A stretch of DNA of 64,000 bases from Palleronia salina (GTDB lineage: Bacteria; Pseudomonadota; Alphaproteobacteria; Rhodobacterales; Rhodobacteraceae), in assembly GCF_900141995.1 (NCBI RefSeq), contig NZ_FQZA01000012.1:48477-112476 (forward strand), written 5' to 3'. The position numbers and the translations under genes were made by a program. Below the pieces are notes generated by a model, which worked only from the letters and a program-made list of their open reading frames with translations, ran no database searches and was not told the DNA's origin. This document shows, piece after piece, positions 23,883 to 62,873 of the stretch; the first letter of the stretch is position 1, and every line of letters begins with the position of its first letter.

Positions 23883-25895
23883 TCAGCCGTGTTCGGGGCT
23901 GGCGATGGCCGACAGGCGCGCGACGTCGCGTTCCGCCTCGAATTGCTGGCGCCGGCTGGCCGCCGATTGCGATTCCGCCCGCGCCTGCATCGCCCGGCGG
24001 AGCAACCGCGCGGCCAGCGGCCCCGGCAGCCCCTGCGCCAGGCGCGATACCAGCGGTGCAAACCGGAGATAGAGGGGGTCGTCGCGCGCGACGATGTCCT
24101 CGCAGGATCCGGGATCGTCCTGGCGTCCCGAGCGCCCGTAGAGCTGACGGTCGACCCGGCGACTCTCGTGGTGTTCCGTCAGGATGACATGCAGCCCCCC
24201 CGCCGCCCGCGCGGCGGCGTCGGGCACGATGTCGGTGCCGCGCCCGGCCATGTTGGTGGCCACGGTCACCGCACCCGACCGGCCCGCATCGGCGACCAGC
24301 GCGGCCTCGTCCGCATCCTGGCGTGCGTTGAGAACCGTGTGCCCGATGCCCGCCCGCGTCAGCGCCGCGGCCACGGCCTCGGACGCCGCGACCGTGCGCG
24401 TCCCGATCAGCACGGGTCGTCCCCGGGCCACCATCTCGCGCGTGGACGCCACGATCGCCTCGTATTTCGCCGGTGCCGTCGCGCACAGCCGCACGCCCAG
24501 GAAGCGGCGGCGCGACCGGCGGTGCGGGGGCACCGCCACGGTGGCCAGGTCGAAGAAGCTGCGCATTTCGGCGGCGATTTCCTGGCCGGTGCCGGTCATC
24601 CCCGACATGCGCAGGTACTGGCGATAGAAGCGCTGGTAGGTGATACGCGCGATGGTAACCCGCAAGGCCGTGGGCGGCAGGCCCTCTTTCACCTCGATGC
24701 ACTGGTGCAGGCCGCCCTCCCAACTGCGATCGGGCATGGGGCGGCCGGTGGCCTCGTCCACGATGACGACCTTGGGCGTTCCATCCTCGGGGTCGGTCCC
24801 GAGGATATAGTCCCGGTCGCGCTGGTAGAGATGCAGGGCCTGCAGCGCCTGGCGGACGCGCTCCTCGCGCGCCGCTGCGACCTGCCACAATCCGCCCAGG
24901 GGGCGCGCCCGCTCACCCAGGGTCGCACGCCCTTCGCCGGTCAGGCGCACCCGCCGGCTTTGCGCCTCGATGAACCAATGGGTCTCGTCGACCAATCCGC
25001 GCGCCAGTCGCAGCGCGGCCACGTAGGGCGCGGGATCGGGCGGCGCATCCTCGGACGCCGAGATGATCAGGGGGGTCGATGCCTCGTCGGCGAGCACGCC
25101 GTCTGCCTCGTCCACGATGACGAAATGCAGCCCGCCCAGGATGGTCCGCGCCGGCGGGCGGGCTCCGGGCGCACCTATGGCGCGCCGCAACAGCCGCCGG
25201 GCATGGCTGCGGACCGGACCCATCGCGACCACGTCCTTGAGATAGTCGAACGCGATCTCGGTGTTGTTGGCGTATAGCACGTCGCAGGCGTATTGCGCCG
25301 GCCGCGCCTCGGGCGCCGTGTCGCCGGTCACCAGCCCCAGTGTCAGCCCCAGCCGGGAGAACAACGGGCGGGCCGTTTCCGCGTCGCGCGCGGCGAGATA
25401 GTCGTTCACGGTCGCAACATGGGGTCGCATGCCGGCCAGCGCGGCGGCGCCCGCGGCCAGGGCGGCGGTGAACGTCTTGCCCTCGCCCGTCGCCATTTCC
25501 AGCATGGTGCCGCGCAACAGAAGGATCGCGCCCGAGACCTGCACCGGGCGCGGGCGCATGTCGCGTTCGTGCATGGCGGCGGCGGCGACCACCGCGATGG
25601 CCGCATCCAGGTGATCGGGGCGCAATCCGTCGGCGGCAATGGCGCGCCGGATCTCGTCGGCCCGAGCGCGCAGGTCCGCCGGCGACAGCCCCGCGGCGGC
25701 GTCCAGCAAACGGTAGACCCGGTCGATGCGGCGGCGGTGACGCAGGCGCCGGGGGCCCGCGGCGGCCAACCGGCCGCGCAGCGCGCGCAGGCTGCGATCG
25801 GTCCAGTTCATCCTGGGCACCGCGCGCTGCGGGTACGGGCGCAGGATCCGCTCGGCCGGGGGCGCGATGCGGGTCTTCGACAGCATCGCGATCAC
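23883..25895 (-). CDS. SecA-like translocase ATPase, short accessory form
   Basis: 670 residues against about 900 for housekeeping SecA. DEAD-motor motifs are intact: Walker A MATGEGKT (134-141), NDYLAARD (164-171), VDEADGVLADEASTPLIIS (from 261), VDEATGRPMPDRSWEGGLHQ, MSGMTGTGQE, VATNMAGRGTDI and YGRSGRQDDPGS. The C-terminal zinc-binding tail and most of the helical scaffold/wing region after the second motor domain are missing; the sequence ends soon after ARAESQSAASRRQQFEAERDVARL. The N-terminus is Arg-rich. A GTG start at 25895 overlaps the upstream stop (GTGA); an ATG at 25886 is the alternative. Last gene of the giant-protein operon, so I infer it powers export of that protein. Confidence 0.9.
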   Translation of the reverse strand: MIAMLSKTRIAPPAERILRPYPQRAVPRMNWTDRSLRALRGRLAAAGPRRLRHRRRIDRVYRLLDAAAGLSPADLRARADEIRRAIAADGLRPDHLDAAIAVVAAAAMHERDMRPRPVQVSGAILLLRGTMLEMATGEGKTFTAALAAGAAALAGMRPHVATVNDYLAARDAETARPLFSRLGLTLGLVTGDTAPEARPAQYACDVLYANNTEIAFDYLKDVVAMGPVRSHARRLLRRAIGAPGARPPARTILGGLHFVIVDEADGVLADEASTPLIISASEDAPPDPAPYVAALRLARGLVDETHWFIEAQSRRVRLTGEGRATLGERARPLGGLWQVAAAREERVRQALQALHLYQRDRDYILGTDPEDGTPKVVIVDEATGRPMPDRSWEGGLHQCIEVKEGLPPTALRVTIARITYQRFYRQYLRMSGMTGTGQEIAAEMRSFFDLATVAVPPHRRSRRRFLGVRLCATAPAKYEAIVASTREMVARGRPVLIGTRTVAASEAVAAALTRAGIGHTVLNARQDADEAALVADAGRSGAVTVATNMAGRGTDIVPDAAARAAGGLHVILTEHHESRRVDRQLYGRSGRQDDPGSCEDIVARDDPLYLRFAPLVSRLAQGLPGPLAARLLRRAMQARAESQSAASRRQQFEAERDVARLSAIASPEHG

Positions 25896-28048: not shown

Positions 28049-28049
28049 G

Positions 28050-29894
28050 TCAGGGCCGCCAGCGCCAGGCCTGCAGCGACAGCCAGTCGCGCGCCCGCCG
28101 GGTCCAGAGCGACCAGAGCGACCGCTCGCCCGCCTCGATCCGCGCGAAGCCCTCCATGCCCGGAACCAACCCCTCGGGCACGGGGCCCGTCAGCTGCGCT
28201 TCGGCGTTGAACAGGCGCCGGCCCTCGCGCTCTTCGGCGACGGGCGTGACGGCGGTGACCGTCAGGGGCAGGCGCAGACCCGGCGCCCCCGACAGGGCAA
28301 GCCGCCCGTCCATGCCCGGCGCGACCAGCGATAGGTCCCGCTCGTCGATCCCGAGCGAGACCTCCAGCCGGTCGCCCTGCGCGATCTCGTGCAGAAGTTC
28401 GCCCGCCTCGACCGGCGCGCCGAGGCGACGCCGGTGATCGCCCGAGACTATGGTGCCCGACACGGGCGCGGTCACGCGCACCCGTTCGAGCTGCGCCAGC
28501 GCCAGCGCCAGTTCCGCCTCGGCCGCTTCGAGCCGGGCGGCCGTCAGGGCGCGGCCCGGCGCGTCCCGGTCGGCCAGCGCCTGGCGCGCCTCCTGCCGCA
28601 GGCGCCGCGTCTCGCCCGACAGCCGTTCGGCCTCGAGCGCGAGATCGCGGTCGTCGAAGGCCAGCAACAGGTCGCCCTCTTCCACCTCCTGCCCGGGCCG
28701 GATATCCGCCCGCGCGATGAAGCCCGGCACGGTCGCGACCACCGCCCGCTCCTCGGCGCCGCGCAGGGTGGCATCGGTTTCGATCCGCAAGGGGGCTTGC
28801 AGGATGGCGGGCAGGATCGCGGCCAGCAGCACGAGGACCGCGGCCACGCGGAACGACGGTCGATGCGCGGCGGTCAGGGCTCGCAGGCCGCGCCCGGTCA
28901 TCTGCGGCACCCGGCCCGCGATCCAGGCATTGTCGCGCTGTTTCAGGGCCAGCAGCGGCGCGGCCAGCGCCGCCACGGTTTCCAGACGCAGCAGGTCCTC
29001 GTCGCGCGGCGTCACGTCGAACTCGGCCGTGATGGCGCCGACGGTGCCCTCGTCCGCGAACAGCGGGACAGTGGCCGCGGCGATTCCGCCCGTCTGGTCC
29101 AGAAGGGCCGCGTGGGCCACATCGACCATCCGGGCGCGGCCCTCGGGACCGGGGTGGCAGACGGTGCCGTCCTGGTCCAGCGCCTCGCCCATGGCATCTT
29201 CCAGCGCGCGGGCGACCGGGGCCGATCGCCGGAACCACGCGCCGCCCGACAGCGCCGTCAGCCGCGGGGCCGCGCCGGGCCGGCGGCAGATCCCGACGGC
29301 CACGCGTGTCGCCGGCAGCCACAGCGCCAATTCGGACGCCAAGGCCAGGGCCGCGGGCTTCACCCCGCGCTGCTCGGCCGTGGCGGCCATGAGATCCAGC
29401 GCGCCGAAGCCGCGGTCGAAGCGGGCGCGCTCGGTCTCGATCCGTCGCTGCCACAGGCGCGCGGCCACCCAGCCCGTCGCAAGGGTCAGCGCGCGTCGGG
29501 CGTCGGCCTCCGATCCGATGGTGGTCAGCGCGGCGACCGCCACCACCCGGTCGCCGTCGCGCAGGGCCATGGCCAATTGCGACCGGCCGTCGTCGCTGCG
29601 GCCGCGCACGATCCCCTGTCGCGCCACGGCATCGCCCACGCGCGGGGCAAGGCCTTCGAGCACCGTGTCACCGTCTTCCGGCAGGACCCCCACCGGTCGC
29701 AGCGCATCGGCGCCCGGTTCTTCAACGAACAGGGCGACTTCCTGGATTCCGGGCGCGGCACGGCGCAGCGCGTCGAGCCATCCGGCCACGAACCGGGCCT
29801 GCTCGGCGCTGTCGTGCCAACCGTCGCTTTCTCGCGACCGCGCCGTCGCGGCACGGTCGGGGTCGGGCCGCAGGGCCTGTGCGTCCTGGCTCAT
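28050..29894 (-). CDS. GAF-domain / HlyD fusion, membrane-anchored adaptor
   Basis: 614 residues. About 340 N-terminal cytoplasmic residues include a GAF-like sensor region (roughly 170-320: LDLMAATAEQRGVKPAAL, later TGGIAAATVPLFADEGTVGAI). A single transmembrane segment follows at about 346-365 (FRVAAVLVLLAAILPAIL), then a HlyD-type periplasmic part with hammerhead (GFIARADIRPGQEVEEGDLL), coiled coil and the segment VTAPVSGTIVSGD. The ATG overlaps the giant gene's stop (ATGA), and the next gene begins one base after its stop. Adaptors of this family bridge inner-membrane pumps to outer-membrane channels; the GAF part suggests ligand-gated export. The ligand is unknown. Confidence 0.9.
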   Translation of the reverse strand: MSQDAQALRPDPDRAATARSRESDGWHDSAEQARFVAGWLDALRRAAPGIQEVALFVEEPGADALRPVGVLPEDGDTVLEGLAPRVGDAVARQGIVRGRSDDGRSQLAMALRDGDRVVAVAALTTIGSEADARRALTLATGWVAARLWQRRIETERARFDRGFGALDLMAATAEQRGVKPAALALASELALWLPATRVAVGICRRPGAAPRLTALSGGAWFRRSAPVARALEDAMGEALDQDGTVCHPGPEGRARMVDVAHAALLDQTGGIAAATVPLFADEGTVGAITAEFDVTPRDEDLLRLETVAALAAPLLALKQRDNAWIAGRVPQMTGRGLRALTAAHRPSFRVAAVLVLLAAILPAILQAPLRIETDATLRGAEERAVVATVPGFIARADIRPGQEVEEGDLLLAFDDRDLALEAERLSGETRRLRQEARQALADRDAPGRALTAARLEAAEAELALALAQLERVRVTAPVSGTIVSGDHRRRLGAPVEAGELLHEIAQGDRLEVSLGIDERDLSLVAPGMDGRLALSGAPGLRLPLTVTAVTPVAEEREGRRLFNAEAQLTGPVPEGLVPGMEGFARIEAGERSLWSLWTRRARDWLSLQAWRWRP

Positions 29895-32800
29895 GTCTCG
29901 GGACGACCGGGCAGCGGGATCCTCAGAATGGCCGCGCGTCCGCCAAGCGCTGGCCGCTCGGGGCTGTCGGGATTGACCGCTGCGCTGGCCCGGCGGTTCG
30001 GCTTTCGGCCCCTGTCGGCGGTCAGCGACAGCGCCCCCGCCAGGGCCGACACCGGTGCCAGCGCCGCCAATGCAGCGCGGGGCGCGGGTTCCGCCGACGA
30101 TGCGACCGCCGTCTCACCGGTGGTGATCGACAGGGTATCGCCCAGCTCCGACGCATCGAACCAGACGCGCGCGGTCGACCCGCTTCCGATCACGGGCAGG
30201 CCGGCATGGGACGTTCCGCCGTCCACCATCTGGGGCGCAACCGGTCGCGTGTCCGTCTCGGCCGAGATCGCGACGGCCTTGGCGTCGGCGCGCAGCGGCA
30301 CGCCCAGAAGCCGGCCCCGCCGCTCGACCGCGCCCGCCAGGGCCAGGCCCGTGCCCAGCCGCAGGCGGGGCAGCGGATCCGCCTCGGCCCGGACGTCCAG
30401 CTCGAAGATCGCCTGGTATGCCCCACCCGGCGTGCCGTTCGCATCGCCGTCGATGGCGCAGCCCACCAGGTCCAGGACACCCGCGGCGGTTCCTTCGATG
30501 ACCAGGGACAGGGGGCCGGTCGGCGTTTCCGCGATGACGAGTGTCAGCTGCCGCCGGTCGTCGGACAGGATGGTGCGGATCGAGACTGGACGTCCCGCGC
30601 CATCGACCAGCCTCAGCGTGCCATCCTCCAGCGTGGCGGGATCGATGGCCCGCGAGAAGGTCACGACGATCCGCCCGCCGCGCATCTCGGCCGAAACGAC
30701 CCGGACCGGATCGAGCGTGCCGACGGAGACGAGTTGCGTGACCCGTTCCACCCCGACCGCATCCTGCAGGATGAACGTGATGCGCTTCAGCCCTTCGTCC
30801 TCGTAGCTGTGGGTGATATCGCGCGCGCCCTCGGGGATCTCGACCACGGTGCCATCGCCCCAGTCGATGCTGAGCCCCGCCGGCGCCCCGTCCGAGATCA
30901 CGAGCGTGAAGCGGTGACCGGGCTCGATCACACCGGGCATCACCGCCACGCGCCCGCCGATGATCGTGGCGGTGTTCACGCGGCAGAGCTCGGCGCTGCC
31001 GCCCCCTCCGCCGCCGCCGCGCCGGCCCGGTGTCGAATAAAGGTCGTCGGTGCCGGTGTTGCCCATCGAAACCCGGACAAGGCGCGGACCGGTCGTCAAT
31101 GTCGCCACGCTTCCCGGGTCCCCGACAAGGGTCGGGCCGTCGCGGGGCGGATCGGCTACGACGGGCGTGGGCGTGTCCGGGGTCTCGGGCCGCTCCGGCG
31201 GATCCTCGGGACCGTCGATCGGCGCGACGTCGATGGTGACATCCACCGGATCCGAAGACGCCTGGCCATCGGTGGCGCGATAGCGGAACCGGTCGGTGCC
31301 GGCGAAGCCCGCCTTGGGCGTGTAGAGAATTCGCCCGTCGGGCAGGATCGAGACGTCGCCATTGGCCGGATCGTCCACCATGTCCACCGACAGGGCGTCG
31401 CCGCCCGGATCGGTGTCATTGGCCAGGACGTCCAGTTGCACGGCCTCGCCGGCGTTGGTCCGCGCGCTGTCGGGCCGGGCCACCGGCACCGAGGTGCCGG
31501 CGCGCACCCGCAGGTCGAGCACCGCGTCGCCGCCTTCGGCGCCGTCGTCATCGCCGTCGAGCCGCAGCCCACCGGCCCCCGGTCGCGCCCGCCAGCTGTC
31601 GTCGATGCGCAGCACGTAGTCGCCCGTCGGCAACGGCCGGGACGGGGTGAAGACCAGTTGCAGCCCGTCACCCGACAGCGCGACCGCCCCGGCGATGACC
31701 CGACCGCCTGCGGCGCTCAGCGTGACCGCGCCATCCGGCAGATCCCCCATGGGCCGGTCCATGGTGACGGTCAGCACGGTGCGCGTGGGCTCGAAGTCGG
31801 TGACGCGCGGGGCATCGCTGTCCACGGGCGGCGCGTTGACGCGCACGGCGGTGTCGGGCCCGGCAAAGCGGCCATCCTCGTTCACCACCGTGACCGCGAT
31901 CTCGAAGCGGCCGTCGCGGTCGAAGACATGACTGGCCGCGCGGGCGTCGCCCGGCAGCGTGGACGAACTGCCATCGCCCCAGTCGATGATGATGGCGCTG
32001 ATGGTGTCGGCGCCGGGATCGGTGATCGCCAGGGCCAGATCGAACGCAGCACCGCGCGTCACTTCGGCGGCACCGGTCACGATGATGCGGGGGCGCGCGT
32101 CGGCCACGTCGACCGCCACGCGGCGCTCGGCCATGCGCCCTGCCCCGTCTTCCAGCGCGACGATCAGTTCGACCCGGTCCGGACCGTCGGGCGCCTGCCA
32201 GCTCAGCTGACCCGTCACCGGATCGAGTGTCGCACCGGTGGGACCCGAGACAAGGGTCCAGGACAGGCTTCCTGTACCGCCCGCGTCGATGCCCACAAGC
32301 TCGACGCTCAGCCGGTCGCCCTCGATCACGGCAAGGCTGCCCGGATCGGCGATGACGGGTCCGGCCGTCTCGGCGGCCACGTCGATGGTGACGGTGGCAG
32401 GTTCGCTGTCCCGTTCGCCGTCCGACACCACGTAGGTGAAGCTGTCCTGCCCCGAGAAGCCGTCATCGGGGGTGTAGACGAAGGTGCCGTTCACGATCTC
32501 GATCTGGCCATTGGTCGGCGCGCCCGCGATGCGTGGGACCAACGGCGCCGCTTCGGGATCGCTGTCATTGGCCAGCGCGTCGATGGTCACCGGCGTCTCG
32601 AAGGCGGTGCCGACGCTGTCATCGACGGCCACGGGGGCGAGGTTCACCGGCCCGTCGCGCAGCAGCCGCACGTCGTCCACCGCCACCTGCGCGGCGCGGC
32701 TGCCAAAGCCCAGAAGATCGACAGACAGGCGATAGGCGGTTCCGGCGGTGGCGGCGTCCAGTGGCACGCGAAGGGTGATCGGCTGGGTCAGATCATACGA

Positions 32801-35800
32801 ACCGTCGGCCAGACGGGTGCCCTCGATCTCGACACCCGGTGCGACCAGGACGCGCCCGTCCGCCTGGATCGACAGCAGCGCGTCGGTCCCGGCCAACGCT
32901 TGCAGCTGCGCCAGCGGCACGCCGGTTTCCTCGGCGCGCAGCGCGACCTCGATCGCGTCCGGCACGCGGCGCGGATCGGCGTCGAGGCGGATTCCCGACA
33001 GGGTGAGCTCAAGCGCGCTGGCGGTGCCGTCGTTCAGGAAGGCCTGCGTCACGCCCGAGAAGACATCGGCGCCCTCGGCGATCAGTGCCCGTCCGCCGGT
33101 CACGCCGGCGTCGCCCACGAAGGTCCACCCGACCCCGGGATCGGGCGCGGCATCGAAGGTGCCGTTCACGATATCGGTGTTCGTCGGCGGCGTCGCGGCG
33201 GCCTGGGCCGGTGTCGTGTTGCGCGTGGCCGGCCCCGCGGGCGTGCCGTCGGCGCGCGGGACGGCGCGCAGCACCTGCGAAAGCCGCAGCACCCCATCGC
33301 GCGTCGGTTCGCCGGCGGTTGCCAGGTCGGCGGCCTGCGGCAGCCGCCGTTCGCCGGGCGCCAGCGTGCCGGTCATCAAGGTGGGTGCCGTGCCCCCCGC
33401 GCCCGGCAGATCCTCGAGCCCGAGGCTATGGCCCATCTCGTGCGCGATGACCGTCAGCAGGTCCACGCCGCGCAGGGCCGCGTTCTGCAACTGCCAATCC
33501 CCTGCGCCCGGCACGGCCCAGCCGTGGCCCGCCGCGTCATCGTCCAGCGTGATCTTGTTTCCGTCGAAGAGCGCAAGGACGGTCCCGCCCAGGTCCCGGA
33601 TCTCGACCTGGAGGGTCTGAAGCTGGGCGCGTTGCGCGTCGGTGAGCGCGCCCGTGCTTTCCCACAGGGTGCGCGCCGCGTCCGCCACGCATTCCGCGCG
33701 TTCGGCATCCAGCGCGGCCAGCGGCGTGTCGGGCGCGACCTCGGCCGTGACCTCCTGCGCGACCCCGGTGCCGGGGTCGGTCGCCTGGAGCCGGATATTG
33801 TCCAGCAGGTAGGTCTGGCTCAGCGCCGATGCGGCGGGGCTGAAGCTGTCTGGCAGGTTCAGGAAGAATCGTTCGATGGACCCGTCGGTGCCCGACACGT
33901 CCGGCGGGGTCAGGTCCACGTCGGAAGCCTGCGTATCCAGCCCCACGTTGCGCAGCATCAGCTTGACCTGCTTGCCCTTCAGCTCGGACGGGATCGCGAC
34001 GCTGTGGGTCGTGCGCTCGAAGAAGCCCTCGGGCAGCGGCAACACCGCGCGATGCAGGATGTTGGGGCTGCCGTCCAGAACATCGGCGCCCTCGGTCGTC
34101 TCGCCGCGCAGGAACAGCACCTCGACGCCGCTGTCGGTGCCGATGGCCATGGGGGCCAGGGTTTCGAAGGTCAGGTAATTCGCCCCGCTTTCGGGGATCC
34201 AGAACCGGTTGTGCACCAGCGCGTCGAAATCGGTCAGCTCGTCGATGATGTCGGCCAGGAAATCGCCCATGGCGCCGGCACCGCCCACGAAGCCGAAGGC
34301 ACCCTCGACAAGCTCGGTCAGCGCCTCGGAGCCCCCCATGAGGATGGCATTGTCGGCCTTGGCCGGATCCTTGCCGAAGAAGGTGAATTTCAGCGCGGCC
34401 TTCACGAAGGCGGTCAGGCTTTTCTGCTGCGAGGGGTCGATGACGCCGTTGGTCTGGACCTTGAGCCAGCCCTCGATGGATTGCGGTTTGCCGTCCGCCC
34501 CGGTGCCGAAGATGTCGGGCTCCACCGACTTGACGTGGTTCCACACCGCGTCGGACAGCAGCACACCCTTCAGCCAGTCGACCTGCTTGTGCAGGCCCGC
34601 GACTTCGCCATAAAGGCGCGCGCGCTCGTCGTAGGTGTCCAGCCGCTCCTTCGCGCGGTCGCGCGCCTCGCGCCGGCGTTCCAGTTCCGGCGAAGGCAGC
34701 GTCGGGTTCAGAAGCTCGTAAAGGCGGAATTCCTCCTCGGCCTTGCGATACTCCTCTTCGTATTGCGCCTTCAGCGCCTTGGCCGCGGATTCCTTCTGCG
34801 GCGTGTAGTCCGCGATGGCGTCGACCTTCTTCTGGTAGTTCCGGTATCCCTCGTTGGCGGCGATGGTCTCGTTGCCCTGCAAGACCTTGGCGACCAGGTA
34901 TTTCGAGACCGCGTCGGTGATCTTCTTGGCGTACATGTCGAACACCTTGTCGAAGACCTCGACGAAGACGCCCGTCGGGTTGGTGTTCATCACGAACAGT
35001 CCCGCGATATCCGAGCGGAACGACCCCAGCCCGGCCGAGAAGCCTTCGCCGCCATGGAAGGCCCAGCCCGGCAGCTCGTAGCTGAATGGGAAGCGGCCGA
35101 AGCCGGTGACCTGCCCGCTGAAAAGCGCCTTGATCGAGTCCTTGCCGAACAGTTTCTGCTTGGCCGATTTCGGCTGCTGCGTCGCGTCGCCGGGTTTCTC
35201 GGCGAGCTTGTCGATATAGGCCCCCACATCCATCATCGACGCGATCATGTTCACCAGGCTCTGCCGGGTGCCATGCTCGAAATTGCCGTTGAAGATCTCG
35301 GGCACCGCGCCCTCGTCGGCCCAGGCCCCCTGTTCGGAATTGTCGGTGAAGGACTGCGTGACCTTGCGGTCGCCCTGGAGTGGCTTGTGCGGGTCGCCGC
35401 CGCCACCGGTGCTCCAGAACCATCCCTGGCCCACGCCTTCGCGGATGATGCCGGGCCGATTGATCTCGTATTTCGTCAGCACGTCGCGCTGCGCGTCGCC
35501 GCCTTTTACCAGCGTGATCGGTTGCGCGCCGTACCACCCCTTCTTGTCGAAGATATTCGACTGCAGCAGGTTGCGGATGACGGCATCCGCGGTCGAGTCC
35601 TTGTAGGGGTTGATGTCCAGGCCGATATCGCCCGCCCGCCGCCAGAGCGGCACGTCGTAGAAGGCTTCGAGCTCGGCATCGATCGTCCCGGCATACCAGG
35701 CGAGCGTGCGTTCGGTGGGGTTGTTCAGGCCGAAACGGAACCCGATGGCATCGGATTGGAAATCATCGATGTCGAACCCCGTCGCCTTGGCGGACAGGTC

Positions 35801-38800
35801 GATCTCGTAATCCGCGAAGTCCTTCAGCGACCGGCCGTTCGCACTGAAGGTGAACGGTCCCGGAAGGCCGAGCCCAAGGTCGAACTTGGCCTTCACGGCC
35901 TCGTATTGAAGCCGCTTCGTGGTGGTCCACTCTCCGGGCGCCTGCAGGATCGCGTCGAGCGCCTTCTTCGCGTCGTCGGTGGTCAGGAACTCGATGTCGA
36001 AGAACTCGGCCAGCTCGTTCGTGACGTCCGAGCCGTCCTTCTTCCCCTTGGCCGCCGTCTGGAAATAGTTGTCGTGGAAGCCGACATTTTCCCAGCGCTT
36101 GACGTCCGGATCCTTGAAATCGTCCCACTTGATGACACCGACGTCGATGCCCAGGGCCTGGGCGACCTCGAACACCTTGTTGATCGCCTTTTCGAGCGCC
36201 CCCTGGGCCGCCAGGGTCGACATGGTCGGAACGGCATCGATGGCCAGGGACGAGCCGCCCGAGGCGATCGCCCCGGCCACCGATTTCGCGACATTGACGG
36301 CGGCGGCCAGGCGGTTGGTCCAGCGCACCATCAGGAGCATGTCCTGCAAGGGGACCTGCAGCGTCTCCTGCGACTGGTCGAACGGGTCCAGCGTGGTGAC
36401 GTGGACATCGCTCACGTCGGGCCGGAACCGGGCCAGGCGCTGCGCGATCTCGGAATTGACCGACGCCCCGCGGTTATGGCCGATCATGTGCATGGGCGCG
36501 TTGAGCAGCCTGCCCTCGGTATCGGCATCGAGCGCCATGATGGACGCGAACAGCGCATCCGCCGCCGCCTCGGAGAAGCCTTCGTCGGTAATGTCGCTTT
36601 CGGTGACCCAGTCGGACACCAGCACCACGCCGCGCCCGGGCTCGATGCCCTCGGCGCCGGTGCGGTTGGTCTCGGGGTTCACCCACTGCCCCGTCCGCTT
36701 GTCGTACAGCAGGACCGCCGAGCCGCCCGTCGCCTCCGAGATCTCGCGCGCCATGTGCAGCAGCGGCTCGGGCTGTCCGTATCCCACGGACCAAGTGCCG
36801 TTCAGCACCGACATGAAGGGCTGGAACCCGTGGGTCAGCAGCGTGACCCCGGCGATGGCGTCGCCCTGCGACGCGCGCGCCGCGACCTGCACCGACGACG
36901 CGGCCCGGGCGCCGGCCGTGCCGAACTGAACGCCCCAGTACACGGTCGATCCGGCCGTCAGGATCTCGACGAAGTCGGGCGAGAAGGTGACGTTCACGTT
37001 GTCGTTCTCGTCGGCCGCGCCGATATCCTGGATCGTCCCGTCGACGGCAACCTCGTAGGCGCGCCCCAGCACGAAGGCGAAGTCACGAGGCGGCGTCCAG
37101 ACGCGGCCGGGGTTGTAGTCGCCCTTGAAGGCCTTGAGCGCTTCATCGTCGAGATTATCGTGCAGTGGCGGGTCGGTCGGGAACAGGCCCAGCCCCGGCG
37201 CACGGGTCGAGAGGTAAAGCTTCACCCGGTCCGATCCGGCCGGCGGGGTCTCGGCGTCCCAGCCGAAGATCAGCCGCAGCTGGCTCTTGTTCTCGCCCCA
37301 GTTGACGATGGGTTCGGTCACCGGCTCGAGCCGCAGGTCGCCCGCCGCGCCGAAAGCGATGGCCGAGGGACGGCGCACGTCGATGCCGGGGCGGTTCACG
37401 TTGGTGGTGTCGTAAAGGTCGATGGGATAGCGGCTGGGGTCGTCGTCGGTGTCCTTCTCGGCGGTTTGCATGGCGAAGGCGCGTTCCAGCAGGGCCGAGG
37501 TGTCGTAACCCAGCACCGTGTCCGAGTGCCAGAGCGTCGCCACGAGCCGGGTGCCCGTGACATCCAGCGCGATATCCTTGATCTCCTGCCCCGGGAACAC
37601 GGCGGTCGTGCCCAGGAAACGCGGGTTCGCGCCCAGCGGATTGGCGATCACACCGATCTTGGTGCCGATACTCGTGCGGTTCTCGATCCGCGCCAGAAGC
37701 CCGCGGTCCGGCGTGCTCCGGTCGCCGGTGTCGATGACGTAGGCAAAGGCGCCGGACGGATCCAGCAGGACCTCGCCCGCGGTCTGGATGTCCATGTCCC
37801 AGGCCTGCAGGGACGTCCCGATCTGCTTGCGCAGCAGCGGGTACTTGTAGACCGTCAGACCGCCGGCATCGATATAGGTCTCGCCGACATTGTAACCCCA
37901 GGGGTTGTACGCATTGCGCGTCATGCCCAGGCTTTCGGCGTAGGCCGGGTCGAAGCCGCGCCACTGTTCCTGCGTGGCGTCGAGATAGCGCATCCTGATG
38001 TCGAACGCGTCGGGGTCGTCGGACGCGGTCTCCAGGACCGACACGCCGTTGCCGAAGGCACCCTTGTGGGTGACCATCATGACGCCCGGCCGCGGGGACG
38101 CGACCAGGTCGCGGGCGTCGTATTTCACGATCCAGCGCCCATCGACCGAGAACAGGGGCCGGTCGGGGTTGGCCCGGTCGCCCGCCCGCTCGACCGGGGC
38201 ACCGATCTTGGCGCCGTAGAGCGAGATATCGGCGGTGACGCGCTCCATCTGGGGGCGGCCGTCGTCCCGGAAGACGGGGTCGCCGTCCTCGTCGACGGCC
38301 TGGCGCCAGACCTCGCGGTCGCCGCGCACGTCCCGCAGCGCCGGATCCACGTCGATCACGTGCATCTCGGACCGCCAGAAGCGCGAGCTTTCGCGGAACT
38401 TCATGTGCGACCGGCCGAGCTGTCGCAGGTCACGCTCGCCCCACGGCGTCAGGGCGTAAAGCCGGCGACCATCCTCGGACAGCTCAAGCGCGTGGATGAT
38501 GTTGTAGGCCGAATCCTCGCCGCCCACGTTCAGCGTGCCCGACGGATCCCAGACCTCGACGTCCAGCGTGGTCAGCTTGCGGGCCTGCATGAAGAACTCG
38601 GCCCCCTGGCTCAGGTCGATCTCGTAGATCGACGCCTTGGCCGAGACGAACAGCCGCTGGCCGTCGGGCGACAGCACCATGTCGGTGATCGGCCCCTCGG
38701 GGATCGGGATGCCGCGCAGATGTGGCGCGACGTAGATGTTGTCGGGATCGGCCGCCGAGAAGTCGACGAAGCGCTGGGCGATGGTATCGAACACCTCGAC

Positions 38801-58000: not shown

Positions 58001-59220
58001 TGCATGACCGCGCCAAGGACGGTCGGCGCCTCCTCGAGCCGCAGCGCGTAGCTGACCTCGAGCGGCGTGGTCCCGAACGGCTGCCAGGTCTCGACGATCC
58101 ATGTGCCCGCGCTGGCACGCCAGGGACCGGGCGCATCCCGGAAGGTCGAGGCGTTGAAATCCGACCAATTGCCCTCGTGGATGACGGTGCCGTCGGGGTC
58201 GACAAGACGCATCCGCAACCCGCTGTCGGCCGCGATGGCGTCCGGCGCGATCCAGCCATCGGCTGCGACCTCGAACCGGTCGCGCAGCAGCGTGCCGTCC
58301 GTGCCGGGACTGCGCGTCACCAGCGTTCCGGGGGCGACGTCGGCGGTCACGATGGGCGGTTCGGGCCGCGCGCCCTGCGCGGGGATCGGGGTCAGCGAGC
58401 TTTCGGTGCCCGGCGCAAGGAAGGCGATCACGTCACCGGCGATTGCCGCGGGGTCCGAGCGCGACGCCTCGCCCAGCAGATTGCCATCGGCATCGATGCG
58501 CCAGAGCGCCGTCGGCGTCACCTCGCGCGTGCCGTCGAAGAAACGGGCCTGTTGACCCACGGCAAGCGCCAGCCGGACGAACCGCCCCCGGTCGGTGTCG
58601 GGCAGCACGGTCCGTTCCAGCATGGTGAGACGGGGAATATCCGCCAGGGGCTGCACCACCATGGACGCCTCGGTCGTGCGGGTCCAACGCAGCGTCCAGT
58701 CGCCCGCCGAAAGCTGCAGCAGGTTCTCGTTCGAGTTGATCTGGCGGACCGTTCCGTCGGGCGCGACAAGCTCGAGCCGGCCGTTGCCCAGCCCTTCGAC
58801 CGCGACGACAGCGGCGGCGTCCAGCGACAGGACATGCACGGCCGGATCGTCCTGGAAATCGGTCGTCGCGCGCAGCACGCCGTCGCCGTCGGCGGCCATC
58901 GTCGTATCCGGACGCGCGCCCAGGCGAAGCCGCAGCCTGTCACCGGCTTCGGGCGGCAGGACACGCACCACCTGTGGCCCGGCCGTGTCCACGGTCCAGC
59001 GCCCGTCCGCATCGGGCAGAGCCACGCCATCCGCACCGAAGATCGCGGTCGCTGAGGACGGTGTCGTGGTGTCGATGGCGACCCGCGCCCCGGCCGGTGC
59101 CGCGGCACGGTAGAGCCGCCCGTCATTCCAGGCCCGGGCCAGCGTGGCGTCCGCGTCCAGCGCGGGCAGATCCTGCAGGCGGCGCAGGTGGAAGGATCGC
59201 GCCGCGTCGGACTCGATCAC
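51406..59220 (-). CDS. Giant protein, segment 3: PPC-like units then ten CARDB-like repeats
   Basis: About 2,580 genuine residues. The sense resumes with GDWTAVIESDAARSFHL once a missing G is restored. The first half holds many PPC-like beta domains (phrases such as LSAGDWTLRW, LSPGRYELIATTN, LGPGDYVLEIVRD). From about 55085 it turns into CARDB-like units of about 120-130 residues, each opening with P/A-D-L-x-V and a WxVxNxG core (for example GEQLEVGWRVTNAG). The last approximately 25 residues before the stop at 51406 are out of frame. Confidence 0.75.
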   Translation of the reverse strand: MIESDAARSFHLRRLQDLPALDADATLARAWNDGRLYRAAAPAGARVAIDTTTPSSATAIFGADGVALPDADGRWTVDTAGPQVVRVLPPEAGDRLRLRLGARPDTTMAADGDGVLRATTDFQDDPAVHVLSLDAAAVVAVEGLGNGRLELVAPDGTVRQINSNENLLQLSAGDWTLRWTRTTEASMVVQPLADIPRLTMLERTVLPDTDRGRFVRLALAVGQQARFFDGTREVTPTALWRIDADGNLLGEASRSDPAAIAGDVIAFLAPGTESSLTPIPAQGARPEPPIVTADVAPGTLVTRSPGTDGTLLRDRFEVAADGWIAPDAIAADSGLRMRLVDPDGTVIHEGNWSDFNASTFRDAPGPWRASAGTWIVETWQPFGTTPLEVSYALRLEEAPTVLGAVMQGEVPDEGHGAVLHVVDLDAPAVVRPQWVRPGGAPDFSGIATILGPDGSEMWSGGGNSDGPVVVLPTAGRYVIRIDGNVSADPLRNPGTENYALQLTDLTRAADPGAAEIDFTTPGWDFATQTVRGTDGRVVQVDGQDVYRLAGLADTDTDTETWILPAFAMEGRLDRHEVSLDWRAEPSVTDAAGGTFVMAWLPLAAAGAGGVVPEALLADRAQAPRSAGRLTLEIDMARNRIEVTHLRRQPGSTTVDTRVDAFDIPAATADLSVAAFRQLDAVLAADGDGARLTLSLGQGADSVVLIDGHALPGFVIEDLRLAFGARVGSATANHDIAAIRVARSDWTGADLPLGDTVLSHPGGEALSRWTFGVDADTTVFLDRISGTATYYLKKQGEPDRLARPLDPVSTSFVSGEPDPPALRLSPGRYELIATTNRFGTTDHSFRLVDLSALPQAGLGAASNVTLDPGARAGGVTFDLAAGQPFGIEVTDGALTRDVSAVVIGPDGSVVARNRGDMAFHRLVAERAGTYAVLWDRTDGTTEPHSLTAVVHDLTAGGGALALGGTTTGPALAPAARSRHGFTLAQESLLHFDTLSGGAEHSWRIFDADGALRAEGTATANAQPLAALGPGDYVLEIVRDARTAERLEFVLANMTDAPALEPDVAQALTAAAEGAALRARVALQDGQGYTIEGLSQEDARWWLTDDAGRIVSSGVGPAPARRIDIGATGTYHLIVDAPDATETAELRLRTVPQTLPIALGERVEMAFDGAGQVRETAFTLTDDSTRVVIDTLLAGVRAEVALIGPDGTTRATWDLDASSFGTLEESPLVLGPGTWRVVVTAEPNTGFNPPPVQGQIALRVLDTANAVALTDDGRVEGRLDPGSLADLYSFDGTAGQAVSFTFDESQRDTRAFLWSPAGERIALLSASGASGEVTLSETGRYLLVVRGDAQAAGGVRSYTLTGHLDLTDPDRPIPISRQGDGPDLSVRDLAITGDALSGAPLEITWRSANLGTEPAVGQLSERVEILDAGGAVRATLAVPLDLSASPLAAGAARARSAEITLPADLQGDITVRVTTDAGQALEERNSDGTAETNNVANIAAVATVPSFPNLVVEQLSGPDFDLWQPGQTVNLSYTVGNTGDAAAEPGWTERLSLLDRVTGQIVRSIDVAVTERLDAGASATRQVALVVPDAAISGFELSLSLDTADVVDERADAVDAESDNTDLLRFVAAPDLTVTGLRIDGALRVGEPVVVEWTTSNVGTLPAGAHLDRVEISYRNAVSSPLVTATVSRDGLAPDAQAQNRVTLDLPVGADPREMRVRVVTNAGTPAVTEVTVNSSERHETNSARLDRVALPPLRADLRLDAPVAPPTASVGDTIDVSWQVENAGPVETRSDAWVDELWLSRDATPGDPDDILLARVPRAGALGAGGTYQAAAEVVVPQAGGGDWQLVVITDADAALDEPGTRGDNISPATAIVLSAPAADLSVGDVSVSRTRLFAGEQLEVGWRVTNAGPDAAPAGSLDRILISATGDIADAVLLAEIASQAPLAAGDSILRSRNVTLPGGLSGALTLFVVTNADGRVGEGPNGADNNTAEAPTELAVASRAAADLVVSDVLRPDGLTAGVPFDLSYTVRNAGSVAALGPWRDRIQLIDPATGQSLGDLGTFRRDASLAPGESYRAEVRITPPRLLRDGPVLLRVIADVEDAVFEAGLEASNVEDGTPLPAGAPDLSVAVSGPATARAGQEITLDWTITNDGARPAIGSFVDRIWLSPTDDPADGRLLAEVVTDAGGLAPGESLAVARRVTLPADMAGPLRLILGVNDDASLTEAGGPPDHAITPIEITAIAQPDLVVAEVTAPPLVYGAIATFEVSWRVENRGTGTGTGAAYTDAVRLVEAGSGRIVPLGTFTRTGPPAPGEGYTETASFTVQNLSGDWRVEVATDVDDTLYEDGAGANVAGTPVGFAARPYADLAVTRVDAPESASGGDTITVGWRIENVGDESAPLNPGGRTAVRDRIEVRRVSDGALLTSRSVDRFGQLAPGDAVERVETLTLPDYADGDYEIVVRTDPEGRVYEHTALANNRLARALTIAGRPLPNLAVDAFEVDPAADEGGFVEFGWTVRSTGPGVADGTWRVAISDEATGRVLWSGTEQGTLPPGTTQERREIVALPEGLVGERAVVLTLIPAPMPTAPTWLRRRASIPSSTTPPRPS

Positions 59221-61742
59221 CGCGGTCCAGTCGCCGGCCCCAGGGTCACACCTGCGGCGCCCTGGACGATGTCGACCCTTTGTTCCGCACCGTCCGGGGT
59301 GCTGAAAACCACGGTCGCGCTGTCACCCGGGCGCCAGTCCGACAACGCGTCCAGCCACAGGGATGTCTCTTCGGCAAGGGCGAAGCGGTGGCGCACCTCG
59401 ACCGCACCGCCCCCGACCGGATCGGACAGGAGCGGCGCGGCAGAGATGCGCGAGGCCAGCGTGACATCCGCCCCGCTCCGGGCCGTGCCCGGCAGCGCGC
59501 CTTCGAAGTCCAGGTCCAGCAACAGGTCCGCGGCATCGGCGGCCGGCGGCGTGGTGACCAGCGCCGCAATGGCCGCGTCGTCCAGCGCGGCGCCCCATAT
59601 CCGCAGGTCGTCCATGGCACCGGCGGCCCCGGCGCCGATCCGCGGCGCGGCGGTGGCCCCGGGCAACGCGCCCAGGGTCACGGATCGCTGCAGGCTTCCA
59701 TCGACGAAAAGCGCCGCTGTCCCGTCGGCCGTGATGCGCACGGCCACGTGGTGCCAGTCGCCCGGGGTCCGGCGGGTGAAGTCCGACAGCTCCCGCGTGC
59801 CCGCGCCATCGGCGATCTCGACCTCGAACCGGTCCGCGCTCACGGTCAGCTCGATGCCTCCGATCGCCAGGAGGCTGCCCCGTGTCGAATCGTCGAACCT
59901 CACCCAGGCCTCGACGGTGCGCGCGCCGTTGGGGGCCGGTGCGCCGTCCACGGCGGCGCCGATCCCGTCCAGGCGCAGGACCTGACCGCCGCGCTCGGCC
60001 AGCCGTTCGGCCGGCGCGCCGGTGCCGGTCGTCACGTCGATGTCGACGGTCCGGATCTCCACCGGCGTGAGCGTGGCGATCGTGTTGCGGAAGCTGCTGC
60101 TCGCGTCCGTGGAGACCACCGCCATCTCGGGCAGACCGGGCGCCAGTCGCTGTCGCGGGTCCTCCGGCAGGTCGAGCCGCGCGCCAGTCGCCACGTCGTA
60201 GAACGCCACCGCGTCGGCATTGGACAGGGCGAAATCGACGGGCGCGTCGCCGGTCGCCGGCACCCGAGCCACGAAGATGTTGCCGGAGCCAAGATCGGTT
60301 TCGCCGGCCGCCAGCAAGGGCGCCGTCGCGAAAGACTGCCAGCGCACGATGTTGGTGCGATCGAAGCGCGGGGGCGGCGCCACGATCCGCCAGGTGCCTT
60401 CGCCCAGCACGGCGACGGCCGTGTCGTCGCGCGACCAGTCGTCCGGTCCGAGCAGGACACTGCCATCTGGCGCGATCAGCGTCGCGTCCTGCAGGTTCCC
60501 GACGGACATGAGATGCGGGCCCGGCGCGGTCACCGGGATATCCCACACGACACCCGCCCCGGCGACCGTCGACACGGTGTGAGCGATGTCCGGCGGAAGA
60601 CTGGACGTCTGCGGTGGGGTCAGCGCCACGGTCACCGGGGACGTGCCGTCGTTGTCCCGCGTGCTGTAGGCCAGGACGGTGGCCTGCCCGCCCTGCCCCG
60701 CAAGCGGCATCCACGCGTCGCCGCGCACGACACCTGTCGGGTCGATAATGACGGCTGCGACCGGGAAACTCCGCGCGACGTCCAGGGTCTCGTAATCGGT
60801 GACCTCGATCGTGCCGATCAGCGGCGCGGCGCCCTCGGCCGTCGATACATCGACCGTCTGCCCATCGCTCAACGCCTGGGCCGTGCCCAGGTCGAACAGT
60901 CGCACCGACCAGTCGTCGGGTTGCGCCCAGAGCCGCAGGGTCGTCGCGCCCGCCGGCAACGTGAGCGCCGGATCGTCGACGCGGTTGCCGACGTCCAGCA
61001 AGGCCAGCCCACCGGACCACAGGACTTCCCCGTCCGCCCCGATCAGCGCCGCCGATCCGCTGCCCGAGGTCTCGAAGATGGCGGGGGTCTCGGCGTCGAG
61101 ATCGATCGCCACGTCGAACACCTGTCCGTCCTCGGGCGCGGTGCCGACGATGGTGCCGCCCAATGCCAGCGCGCCGGTGCCCCCCACCTGCGGGCTGCCC
61201 AGCTCGAAGCTGTAATTCAGCGCCGTGCCCGCCGCGCCACGCCCCGCGAAGACCACGGTATAGCGGCCGGTCTGCGCGGCGGTGCCCAGAATCCGGTCCT
61301 CGTATTGCGAAATCGCCACGCGCGATCCGCCGGGATCGTAGATCGCAACGGTCGCCGCGTCGGGGTCGGCGTCATCGAGAATGTCGATCAGGATCGATTG
61401 GCCCGCCTGGAGGGTCAGGCTGTGCAGGGCCGTCGCGCTGGCATCCGCAAGCTCGCCCGAAACGGCACCGTCCGGTGCGTCCTCGGCCTGGGCCAGGTCC
61501 CGCAGGGCAAAGCGGACGGGCCCGGGCGCGCGGCCCCCTTCGATCTCGACCCGGTAGTCGCCGGGCGTCAGCGTCAGCGGCTCGTAGTCCACCAGATCCG
61601 ACGCACGCCGGTCCGTGACCTCGCCATCCGGCCCGAAGAGTGTCAGGCGCGCCGAGTCCGGGGCCTCGACCAGGTCGAGCAGGATCTGCCGCTGCTCGTC
61701 CAGCGTAAAGGTCCACGCCTCGCGCTCGTGCGGGGTGTCGAG
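59217..61742 (-). CDS. Giant protein, segment 2: PPC-like units and LamG-like domain
   Basis: About 840 residues. It continues the sense of segment 1 once a 26-bp copy is removed (TFTLDEQRQILLDLVEAPD). It begins with repeated PPC-like beta units marked by TPGDYRVEIEGG-type phrases, then from about 60070 to 59510 a LamG/concanavalin-like jelly roll (TVEAWVRFDDSTRGSLLAIGG, DWHHVAVRITADGTAALFVDGS, MDDLRIWGAALDD), then another PPC-like unit. It stops at a TGA (59217-59219) that overlaps a GTG of the next frame. If translated alone, the first usual start would be near 61592. Confidence 0.75.
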   Translation of the reverse strand, partial: LDTPHEREAWTFTLDEQRQILLDLVEAPDSARLTLFGPDGEVTDRRASDLVDYEPLTLTPGDYRVEIEGGRAPGPVRFALRDLAQAEDAPDGAVSGELADASATALHSLTLQAGQSILIDILDDADPDAATVAIYDPGGSRVAISQYEDRILGTAAQTGRYTVVFAGRGAAGTALNYSFELGSPQVGGTGALALGGTIVGTAPEDGQVFDVAIDLDAETPAIFETSGSGSAALIGADGEVLWSGGLALLDVGNRVDDPALTLPAGATTLRLWAQPDDWSVRLFDLGTAQALSDGQTVDVSTAEGAAPLIGTIEVTDYETLDVARSFPVAAVIIDPTGVVRGDAWMPLAGQGGQATVLAYSTRDNDGTSPVTVALTPPQTSSLPPDIAHTVSTVAGAGVVWDIPVTAPGPHLMSVGNLQDATLIAPDGSVLLGPDDWSRDDTAVAVLGEGTWRIVAPPPRFDRTNIVRWQSFATAPLLAAGETDLGSGNIFVARVPATGDAPVDFALSNADAVAFYDVATGARLDLPEDPRQRLAPGLPEMAVVSTDASSSFRNTIATLTPVEIRTVDIDVTTGTGAPAERLAERGGQVLRLDGIGAAVDGAPAPNGARTVEAWVRFDDSTRGSLLAIGGIELTVSADRFEVEIADGAGTRELSDFTRRTPGDWHHVAVRITADGTAALFVDGSLQRSVTLGALPGATAAPRIGAGAAGAMDDLRIWGAALDDAAIAALVTTPPAADAADLLLDLDFEGALPGTARSGADVTLASRISAAPLLSDPVGGGAVEVRHRFALAEETSLWLDALSDWRPGDSATVVFSTPDGAEQRVDIVQGAAGVTLGPATGPR

Positions 61743-61954
61743 GCCTCGCGCTCGTGCGGGGTGTCGAGCTGCGCCGTGACGGGGGCGAAGTCCGCCGAAA
61801 GCAGGATCCGGTCCTCGAACGTCTCGAGCTCGGTCTGCGTCGGATCGACGATATGATCGGAAGTCCGCGCGGTTCCCAGAAGCCGACCCATGGCGGCCGC
61901 GATTCGCTTTTTGCGGGACTGGTCGGCCCCGGGGGCCGAGTGACGACGCTTCAA
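61643..61954 (-). CDS. Giant protein, segment 1: LEPR-XLL-like N-terminus
   Basis: About 70 genuine residues before the frame break: a basic leader (RKKRIAAAMGRLL) then ELETFEDRILLSADFAPV at about residues 42-59. This matches the LEPR-XLL pattern (LE-x-L-EPRILLSAD), an N-terminal motif seen on extraordinarily long bacterial proteins and thought to be an export or sorting signal. Pro of LEPR is replaced by Asp. There is no classical Sec signal peptide. Past about 61743 the frame reads nonsense created by the 26-bp duplication and stops at 61643. Confidence 0.7.
   Translation of the reverse strand: MKRRHSAPGADQSRKKRIAAAMGRLLGTARTSDHIVDPTQTELETFEDRILLSADFAPVTAQLDTPHEREASTPRTSARRGPLRWTSSGRSCSTWSRPRTRRA
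61717..61768. repeat. Perfect 26-bp tandem duplication inside the giant gene
   Basis: Two adjacent identical 26-base copies (61717-61742 and 61743-61768), each beginning GCCTCGCGCTCG and ending GGTGTCGAG. Since 26 is not a multiple of three, the second copy shifts the frame. Deleting exactly one copy joins segment 1 to segment 2 in a frame that reads sensibly. Confidence 0.95.
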
Positions 61955-62051
61955 TATTACCTCAAAATATTACAGGATTTCACCATGGTACGGATCACAG
62001 CGAGTCGACGAAACTAAATCACTCAATGCGGTGAGGTTAAGGACGGATGCG
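61955..62051. promoter_or_regulatory. Divergent AT-rich promoter region of the giant operon and adaptor gene
   Basis: 97 bases between the giant gene's TTG and the adaptor's ATG, markedly AT-richer than its surroundings. It includes a direct repeat AATATTAC at 61953-61960 and 61966-61973. The adaptor's ribosome site AAGGACGG lies at about 62039. The placement suggests joint control of the two transcripts. I cannot name a regulator. Confidence 0.45.
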
Positions 62052-62873
62052 ATGGAAAGTCAACGCAGCGGATTGATCCCGTGGATCGTGTTTTTCGTGG
62101 TCTCGTCGGGGGGATCGGCCTGGGCGCAAACGGCCGAGGATTGCCTGCTCGAGCCATCGGCCGAGCTGCGCCTGGCCGTGCGGACACCCGGCGTGGTCGC
62201 CAGCGTTCATGCCGCGCGCGGTGATGCCGTCGGCGCGGGCGATGTCCTGCTGACACAGGTCGATGAAGTCGAGCGGGCCCGACTGAACGTCGCGCGCGGG
62301 CGTGCCGAGGATCGCGCCACGCTGGACGGGATCGTCGCGCGGCTGGACGTGGCGCGCGCCCAGCGGGACCGCATCAGCGCGCTGGCCGAAGGTGACCTGG
62401 TCACGCAGGAACGGCTGGACGCCGCCGAACAGGACGTGCTGAGCCTGTTGCAGGAGCGTGCCGCGGCCGAATCCACGTTGCGCAGCGCCGCGCTCGAGGC
62501 CGAGGCGGCCCGCGCCGCACTGGATCAACTGGTTCTGCGGGCGCCGCAGGCCGGCGTGGTGACCGAACGGGGCCTGGACCCGGGCGAATTCGCCGACCAG
62601 CAGAGCCCGGCCTTCACCGTGGTCACCCTGGACCCGCTGCACGTGCAGGCGTGGATCCCGGCCCGCTACTGGGGCGGCGTCGCCCGCGGGGACGTGGCGC
62701 AGCTTTCGGTGCCGGCCCGCGGCGACGGGCGATTAGAGGCGGACGTGATCGCCGTGGACCCGATCCTCGAAACGGTGTCCGAGACGTTCCGCGTGACCCT
62801 GGCCTTGCCCAACCCCGACAGCCGCCTGCCCGCCGGCCTTCCGTGTACGCTCTACCTTCCGATCGGTGGCTGA
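62052..62873 (+). CDS. Small exported HlyD/RND-type periplasmic adaptor
   Basis: 273 residues from the ATG at 62052 (AAGGACGG site upstream; an in-frame GTG at 62031 is less likely). Sec signal peptide with a probable AWA cleavage site, then a short adaptor: hammerhead halves (VRTPGVVASVHAARGDAVGAGDVLL and LRAPQAGVVTERGLDPGEF), an alpha-hairpin between them, and a truncated barrel domain ending LPAGLPCTLYLPIGG. Shorter than usual adaptors (about 350-400). Divergent from the giant gene, so probably part of its export apparatus, perhaps the link to a TolC-type channel encoded elsewhere. Confidence 0.85.
   Translation: MESQRSGLIPWIVFFVVSSGGSAWAQTAEDCLLEPSAELRLAVRTPGVVASVHAARGDAVGAGDVLLTQVDEVERARLNVARGRAEDRATLDGIVARLDVARAQRDRISALAEGDLVTQERLDAAEQDVLSLLQERAAAESTLRSAALEAEAARAALDQLVLRAPQAGVVTERGLDPGEFADQQSPAFTVVTLDPLHVQAWIPARYWGGVARGDVAQLSVPARGDGRLEADVIAVDPILETVSETFRVTLALPNPDSRLPAGLPCTLYLPIGG

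Follow-up and report, generated by a model that had tools for sequence, protein, structure and literature searches.

How might a protein of many thousands of residues leave the cell when its gene is coupled to a short SecA-like ATPase and to HlyD-type adaptors, and a domain scan of the neighbouring proteins finds no ATP-binding cassette (ABC) exporter among them? The question is raised by a locus of Palleronia salina (Rhodobacteraceae; NCBI RefSeq assembly GCF_900141995.1, contig NZ_FQZA01000012.1), for which we analysed a stretch of 64,000 nucleotides (hereafter the window; G000:C12:48477-112476) whose right end is the contig end. A minus-strand operon in the window reads, in order, a giant gene with an N-terminal LEPR-XLL signature, a GAF-HlyD gene, a gene fusing a PqqD-like domain, an M50 protease and an HlyD part (M50-HlyD) and a short SecA gene. 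On sequence evidence we consider it probable that the operon unites the giant gene with its own dedicated exporter, driven by SecA and bridged by HlyD-type proteins to a TolC-type channel. The same gene set lies beside giant genes in many unrelated bacteria, and is therefore likely to be a dedicated export machine for very large proteins.

The operon is tightly coupled: a 4-base ATGA overlap joins the end of the giant gene to GAF-HlyD, 1 base separates GAF-HlyD from M50-HlyD, and a 4-base GTGA overlap joins M50-HlyD to SecA. Both this coupling and the identity of the accessory genes, including a divergent adaptor gene, had been claimed in the original prediction, and the junctions and domain matches bear them out (Table 1). 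Pfam models matched GAF-HlyD (HlyD_3, 58 bits; HlyD_D23, 44 bits; GAF weakly, at 22.0 bits, just under the cut-off of 22.4), the short SecA (SecA_DEAD, 258 bits, with P-loop_SecA and SecA_PP_bind also matched) and the divergent adaptor (HlyD_D23, 65.6 bits; RND_mfp, 110.6 bits). As predicted, no OEP/TolC match was found within the window; four lie elsewhere in the genome, three on contig C24 and one on contig C7.

Table 1 Features of the window and of related loci (window positions unless a locus handle is given)
Feature	Position	Strand	Remarks
Short SecA-like ATPase, 670 residues	23883-25895	-	nucleotide-binding domain (NBD) 1, preprotein cross-linking domain, NBD2
PqqD-like domain, M50 site-2-type protease and HlyD/MFP fusion, 718 residues	25892-28048	-	
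GAF-HlyD	28050-29894	-	weak GAF match in N-terminal half; from the sequence, a likely membrane helix around residue 350; C-terminal HlyD
Giant, C-terminal reading frame, 7391 residues	29891-52066	-	CARDB, Ig-like, cadherin-like and PKD repeats
Weak Matrixin match in giant	29894-37066		
Giant, second large reading frame, 2604 residues	51406-59220	-	five CARDB stretches; out of frame near 51.45 kb
Giant, N-terminal large reading frame, Laminin_G_3	59217-61716	-	start listed by the open reading frame caller is GTG at 61592
Giant, N-terminal leader frame with LEPR-XLL signature LETFEDRILLSAD	61646-61954	-	signature at 61769-61828
Exact 26-bp tandem duplication, shifts frame	61717-61768		directly after LEPR-XLL signature; first break of giant
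Divergent periplasmic adaptor, HlyD_D23/MFP, 280 residues	62031-62873	+	N-terminal hydrophobic stretch, predicted Sec signal
Pseudo-SecA loci	L192 (G503:C41), L196 (G411:C4), L048, L057		motif inspection
SecA-less sister loci	L205-L218, L222-L225		M50-HlyD and HlyD proteins; 9 of 18 have TolC, some have SapC and some a LEPR-XLL giant below 4,600 residues
Plasmid set, Methylosinus pMSC49a			giant 26,544 bp, DUF3467, GAF-HlyD, M50, SecA, adaptor, TolC
Plasmid set, Pseudosulfitobacter pDSM107133_a			giant 38,757 bp; whole set and SapC
Plasmid set, Pontibrevibacter unnamed2			giant 31,812 bp; whole set and DUF3467
Plasmid short SecAs	L277:22204-24120, L278:23062-25086, L279:22133-24118		
SapC (PF07277) neighbour	L046:12236-13090		
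DUF3467 (PF11950) neighbour	L020:7678-8079		

The check proposed with the original prediction, whether the accessory genes recur beside LEPR-XLL giants, was run on the best 80 of at least 502 confirmed loci retrieved with a profile of 12 M50-HlyD proteins; in named genomes, these span Alpha-, Beta- and Gammaproteobacteria, Desulfobacterota and Nitrospira. GAF-HlyD was recognised in 77 of the 80 loci, SecA likewise in 77 and all three accessory genes in 74, and each of the six loci missing one accessory gene lies no more than 0.5 kb from a contig end. The 77 SecAs include two pseudo-SecAs, two that are cut off and one, in L044, encoded on the other strand; a separate adaptor was recognised in 52/80. 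Where at least 4.5 kb were available on both sides (42 loci), a same-strand frame of at least 1750 residues stood within 2.5 kb of the module in 39, compared with 0/40 control placements in 20 arbitrary regions (6/40 at 1000 residues). The three loci without a neighbouring giant are L065, with a 907-residue gene carrying the LEPR signature, L068 and L072, whose genome holds a LEPR giant on contig C7; should C7 be the contig of the locus, its coordinates would put that giant some 0.8 kb beyond the fetched stretch. The outcome supports the prediction on this point: the accessory genes adjoin giants in 39/42 loci, and LEPR-XLL giants co-occur with them.

This co-occurrence was also seen at genome level. 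Among 292 genomes of the window's order (LEPR-XLL at E 0.01, M50-HlyD at E 1e-40), LEPR-XLL was present in 21 (17/112 genera), M50-HlyD in 28 (23/112 genera) and both in 19 (Fisher P = 4e-21, uncorrected for kinship). Seventeen genomes form a strong M50 group (>400 bits) and 15 of them hold LEPR-XLL; in the other two, either the contig, of 7,351 bases, stops next to the module (G671) or a frame of at least 2117 residues lies upstream (G538). The two genomes with LEPR-XLL and no M50-HlyD (G517, G562) have weak LEPR matches of about 20 bits. On shared contigs, LEPR-XLL and M50 genes stand 1.8-4.1 kb apart in 19 of 21 pairs, the remaining two being the window's own broken gene and G484 at 14.5 kb; five of the 21 pairs are on opposite strands. 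In G484 (contig C3) another long frame, of at least 2026 residues, adjoins the module, giving two giants and one module. Outside the order, where 31 of the 80 loci were chosen and 30 genomes examined, 28 of the 30 genomes reached through the M50-HlyD gene hold LEPR-XLL, with frames of up to 14,839 residues, versus 0/14 control genomes. These genome sets overlap in some genomes and are therefore not fully independent.

The same surveys bear on the idea that a type I ABC exporter encoded elsewhere in the genome exports the giants while the module processes, times or anchors them. Type I secretion, as in HlyB-HlyD-TolC or in LapBCE for giant adhesins, resembles the present system in its HlyD adaptors, in the TolC gene of some operons, in very large repeat proteins and in the lack of a Sec signal, but the module has no ABC transporter, the signature is N-terminal and M50 and PqqD-like parts are present. 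LssB-type exporters exceeded the cut-off in 62/292 genomes of the order, and the SecA-less locus of G475 (L210) has a nearby protein with both ABC transporter domains; however, LEPR-XLL and LssB-type exporters were independent of each other (5/21 LEPR genomes, P = 0.78), and in the window's genome the one ABC model applied found no LssB-type exporter over the cut-off. We rejected the notion that LEPR-XLL follows such exporters and consider export by a distant type I system improbable; the predicted absence of a type I ABC exporter holds as far as this single model goes.

The properties of the leaders and of the short SecA indicate which route a dedicated exporter would take. We collected 47 clean leaders from 62 loci, including the SecA-less type B loci described below and excluding the window's leader, with the most upstream ATG within 130 codons taken as the start. 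They are mostly basic and not hydrophobic (median 51 residues, with 11 lysine plus arginine versus 4 aspartate plus glutamate), and none of the 47 reached a 15-residue Kyte-Doolittle mean of 1.6 (highest 1.26), a yardstick that has one positive, the adaptor's own signal at 1.71, and that was used without SignalP. The short SecA keeps the Walker A, DEAD, MTGT, motif V and arginine-finger regions but, aligned to the 920-residue housekeeping SecA of the same genome, stops at the start of the scaffold helix, with no wing, two-helix finger or C-tail; canonical SecA contacts SecY through parts that are missing here. Its predicted structure is SecA-like (pLDDT 89.2, pTM 0.88; best PDB match 1tf5, E = 1.5e-48). 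A LAFSGxxE-like tail common to most short-SecA relatives is absent from the window's copy.

In Gram-positive bacteria, the accessory Sec system (SecA2/SecY2) devotes a second SecA to large surface proteins, and the module too has a second SecA that may serve such proteins. The short SecA could accordingly be a SecA2 that feeds the giant to SecYEG, with the HlyD and TolC parts needed for crossing the outer membrane only. As far as the scaffold helix its fold is complete and similar to that of SecA engaged with SecY (6itc_A, TMq 0.76), and NCBIfam SecA2 models match it at 304.9-411.1 bits, though all under their cut-offs (725-1100). Against this, the module SecA is shorter, with neither wing nor two-helix finger and with the scaffold missing beyond its start, its partners are of HlyD/TolC type, none of the 47 leaders has a hydrophobic Sec-type core, and SecY was not recognised among the recurring flank clusters, although no search was aimed at SecY itself. 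We regard delivery to SecYEG as unlikely, and the Gram-positive analogy drawn in the original prediction was not supported by the leader and SecA comparisons. Given basic leaders with no Sec-type core and a SecA from which most of the scaffold-wing region is missing, we favour a SecYEG-independent route docked to HlyD and TolC.

The M50-HlyD protein offers a candidate for the step at which such a leader might be read. Regions 18-102, 196-327 and 450-713 are PqqD-like, RseP-like and MexA-like, respectively, and HExxH, a second conserved motif and an RseP-like fold mark it as a site-2 protease with a conserved active site; by pattern check alone the second motif was unmatched in 9/80, 2/19 and 2/18 loci. 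A sequence profile does match PqqD, whereas the VIA comparison returned mainly MFP folds and no PqqD entry in 50 rows. A daptide HExxH model scored 145.8 bits against a cut-off of 300. PqqD-type domains bind the leader peptides of ribosomally synthesized and post-translationally modified peptide (RiPP) precursors. The fusion of a PqqD-like domain to an M50-type protease recalls leader proteolysis guided by PqqD or the RiPP recognition element, but the module protein is also fused to HlyD and, in place of a small peptide, seems to have a giant protein as its substrate.

We propose that the basic, non-hydrophobic leader ending in LEPR-XLL would act as an export and processing signal, which the PqqD-like domain of the M50 protein would bind and the M50 protease would cut within or at the membrane. 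The truncated SecA, acting on a complex of M50-HlyD and GAF-HlyD and not on SecYEG, would push the unfolded chain through this inner-membrane complex, and the three HlyD-type proteins, the separate adaptor included, would bridge to a TolC-type outer-membrane channel; the GAF half may tune activity. The conserved M50 active site and the GAF half would also fit a regulated retention scheme, in which these two parts would respond to a signal by cutting the leader, so that an exported giant is either released or kept at the surface, and SecA would serve quality control; in Methylorubrum extorquens AM1, a laboratory strain reported to have the four-gene operon, exponentially growing cells are reported to express the GAF gene, with low or no expression of the other operon genes (PMC4452313). 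Three HlyD-type proteins and TolC in some operons nevertheless point to transport, and the leader sits at the N-terminus; of the schemes considered here, we give retention the least credence.

Within the order, M50 genes split into those scoring at least 435 bits (type A) and those at or below 311 bits (type B). Type A modules have a short SecA, and type B modules (11 genomes of the order, with G411 counted as A) have none within the fetched stretch. When 38 whole genomes were searched, a short SecA was found in all 17 type A genomes (a pseudo-SecA only in G411); 15 of 16 type B or LEPR-only genomes had SecA of housekeeping size only, the fragmented assembly G050 being unclear, as did five genomes chosen for having neither LEPR-XLL nor M50. 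The 18 type B loci (14 from the order and four from a class sample) have an adjoining OEP/TolC gene in nine cases, and a TolC gene sits in the operon on pMSC49a; a rule that TolC is always absent was accordingly rejected. LEPR frames of type A genomes measured 5,186-12,980 residues in 16 of 18, the other two being fragments (144 and 1,114 residues) in fragmented assemblies, and exceeded those of type B or LEPR-only genomes (530-4,570 residues, n = 9; P = 4.5e-4), a comparison that leaves out the window's own broken giant and in which contig ends may have shortened some frames. Type A leaders (n = 16) were longer (P = 1.8e-4) and more basic (P = 1.6e-3) than the other nine.

Taking these observations together, we tentatively suggest, at rather less than even confidence, a distinct secretion system: SecYEG-independent, SecA-powered and TolC-docked, with a PqqD-like receptor on an intramembrane protease-adaptor that reads a basic LEPR-XLL leader, exporting proteins of up to about 14,800 residues. 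Shorter giants would be left to a SecA-less sister form, in which case SecA may have been added as a motor for the longer ones.

The giant of the window is real and carries the LEPR-XLL signature, but it is not the single gene that had been predicted: the assembly shows three breaks in its reading frame, and four frames (roughly 61954-61717, 61716-59217, 59220-51406 and 52066-29891) cover 61954 to 29891 on the minus strand. The leader frame scored 23.8 bits with the NCBIfam LEPR-XLL model NF012209 (cut-off 17), and the signature is N-terminal. The first break is the 26-bp duplication, for which slippage, switching or an assembly error are all possible; the other two lie near 59.2 kb and near 51.45 kb. 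Each piece stays open until the next frame takes over, and CARDB matches flank the 51.45-kb break on both sides. Assembly error or recent damage may explain the breaks, and the frames were analysed as assembled, with the breaks left unmended. The genome has a second module, on contig C16, where GAF-HlyD, M50, SecA and adaptor matches lie beside an unbroken LEPR-XLL giant frame of 9861 residues, bringing its total to two modules and two LEPR-XLL giants. A weak Matrixin (Peptidase_M10) match in the window's giant scored 23.1 bits (cut-off 24). In the literature passages available to us, a Vibrio LEPR-XLL giant of about 8000 residues also carries a serralysin domain, and a Limnohabitans protein is another passing use of the term LEPR-XLL.

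Several observations weigh against a dedicated SecA-driven exporter. With its giant broken, the window's copy may not work. In a class sample of 385 genomes, LEPR-XLL was present in 9 and M50 (E 1e-40) in 23, with five shared, and 18 of the 23 M50 genomes had no LEPR match; 21 of the 23 M50 matches are of the weaker kind (≤320 bits), and the four LEPR genomes without M50 have weak LEPR matches (E 0.001-0.01). The SecA-less form occurs together with LEPR-XLL in 4/11 type B genomes of the order, so that SecA is not needed by the whole family, for which reason we rejected SecA as essential to all M50-HlyD/LEPR loci. A clean split by length is countered by SecA-type genomes outside the order that also hold some LEPR frames below 4,600 residues. 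OEP/TolC genes are rare near type A loci (3/80, one of them weak, and 1/20 stretches from the order); the counts may miss distant TolCs, the OEP profile having been derived from sequences of type B loci and of the window's own genome. Both the SecA-less form beside shorter giants and a set of pseudo-SecAs speak against SecA as a simple motor. At four loci with giants, the protein in the usual module position is homologous to the short SecA but has lost Walker A, Walker B and motif V; a further, intact SecA module is present in G503 and in the strain of L048, and the other two were not shown to have one. L079, L198 and L199 failed a strict check for Walker A, but inspection of the sequences showed DEAD and motif V in each of them and GSGKT in L079 and L199, so that only four pseudo-SecAs were counted. 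Finally, the candidate route as read from the sequence presents no apparent inner-membrane channel, and export itself is a proposal.

M50 matches at E 1e-60 were found in three of 72,556 plasmid records, all of which carry the giant, GAF-HlyD, M50, SecA and adaptor genes; the unit therefore occurs whole on plasmids. All three plasmid giants have the LEPR-XLL signature in their leaders, and PLSDB types all three plasmids as non-mobilizable. The plasmid short SecAs, which score 890-937 bits with the module SecA profile, are annotated as 'prepilin peptidase' (two) and 'DEAD/DEAH box helicase' (one). Two other families recur in or next to the module: SapC in a cluster of 17 loci (L046 and 16 further) and DUF3467 in a cluster of 15 (L020 and 14 further). 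Flank cluster 6 (on the strand opposite to the module in 8/9) and flank cluster 7 (one member looks like a sugar-type ABC ATPase) were set aside by eye.

The module itself is already known: the text of Kamneva, Poudel and Ward (2015; PMC4452313) describes it and its spread, listing SecA_DEAD without most of the wing-scaffold, M50-HlyD, GAF-HlyD, HlyD/biotin_lipoyl and sometimes OEP, with no ABC transporter, and suggests a type I-like system in which SecA is the ATPase and M50 the pore. The window's locus has the same four genes, with a SecA_DEAD protein that lacks most of SecA_SW and with the corresponding neighbouring genes. The main text of that paper names no substrate and gives 0 matches for 'giant', 'large protein', 'LEPR' and 'adhesin', and within PMC full texts under Creative Commons licences, to which our searches were limited, we found no link between LEPR-XLL and the SecA module. 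What is new here is the LEPR-XLL giants as the module's likely substrate, together with their basic leader; the SecA-less form, the pseudo-SecAs, the plasmid copies and the SapC and DUF3467 neighbours also go beyond the 2015 description.

A module published in 2015 as an orphan thereby gains a likely substrate family, and the LEPR-XLL signature, until now a named domain, gains a likely role. The export of proteins of 5,000-15,000 residues is poorly understood where a type I exporter is absent. Should the short SecA indeed work without SecYEG, it would put the SecA motor to a new use and give grounds for numbering a new secretion system.

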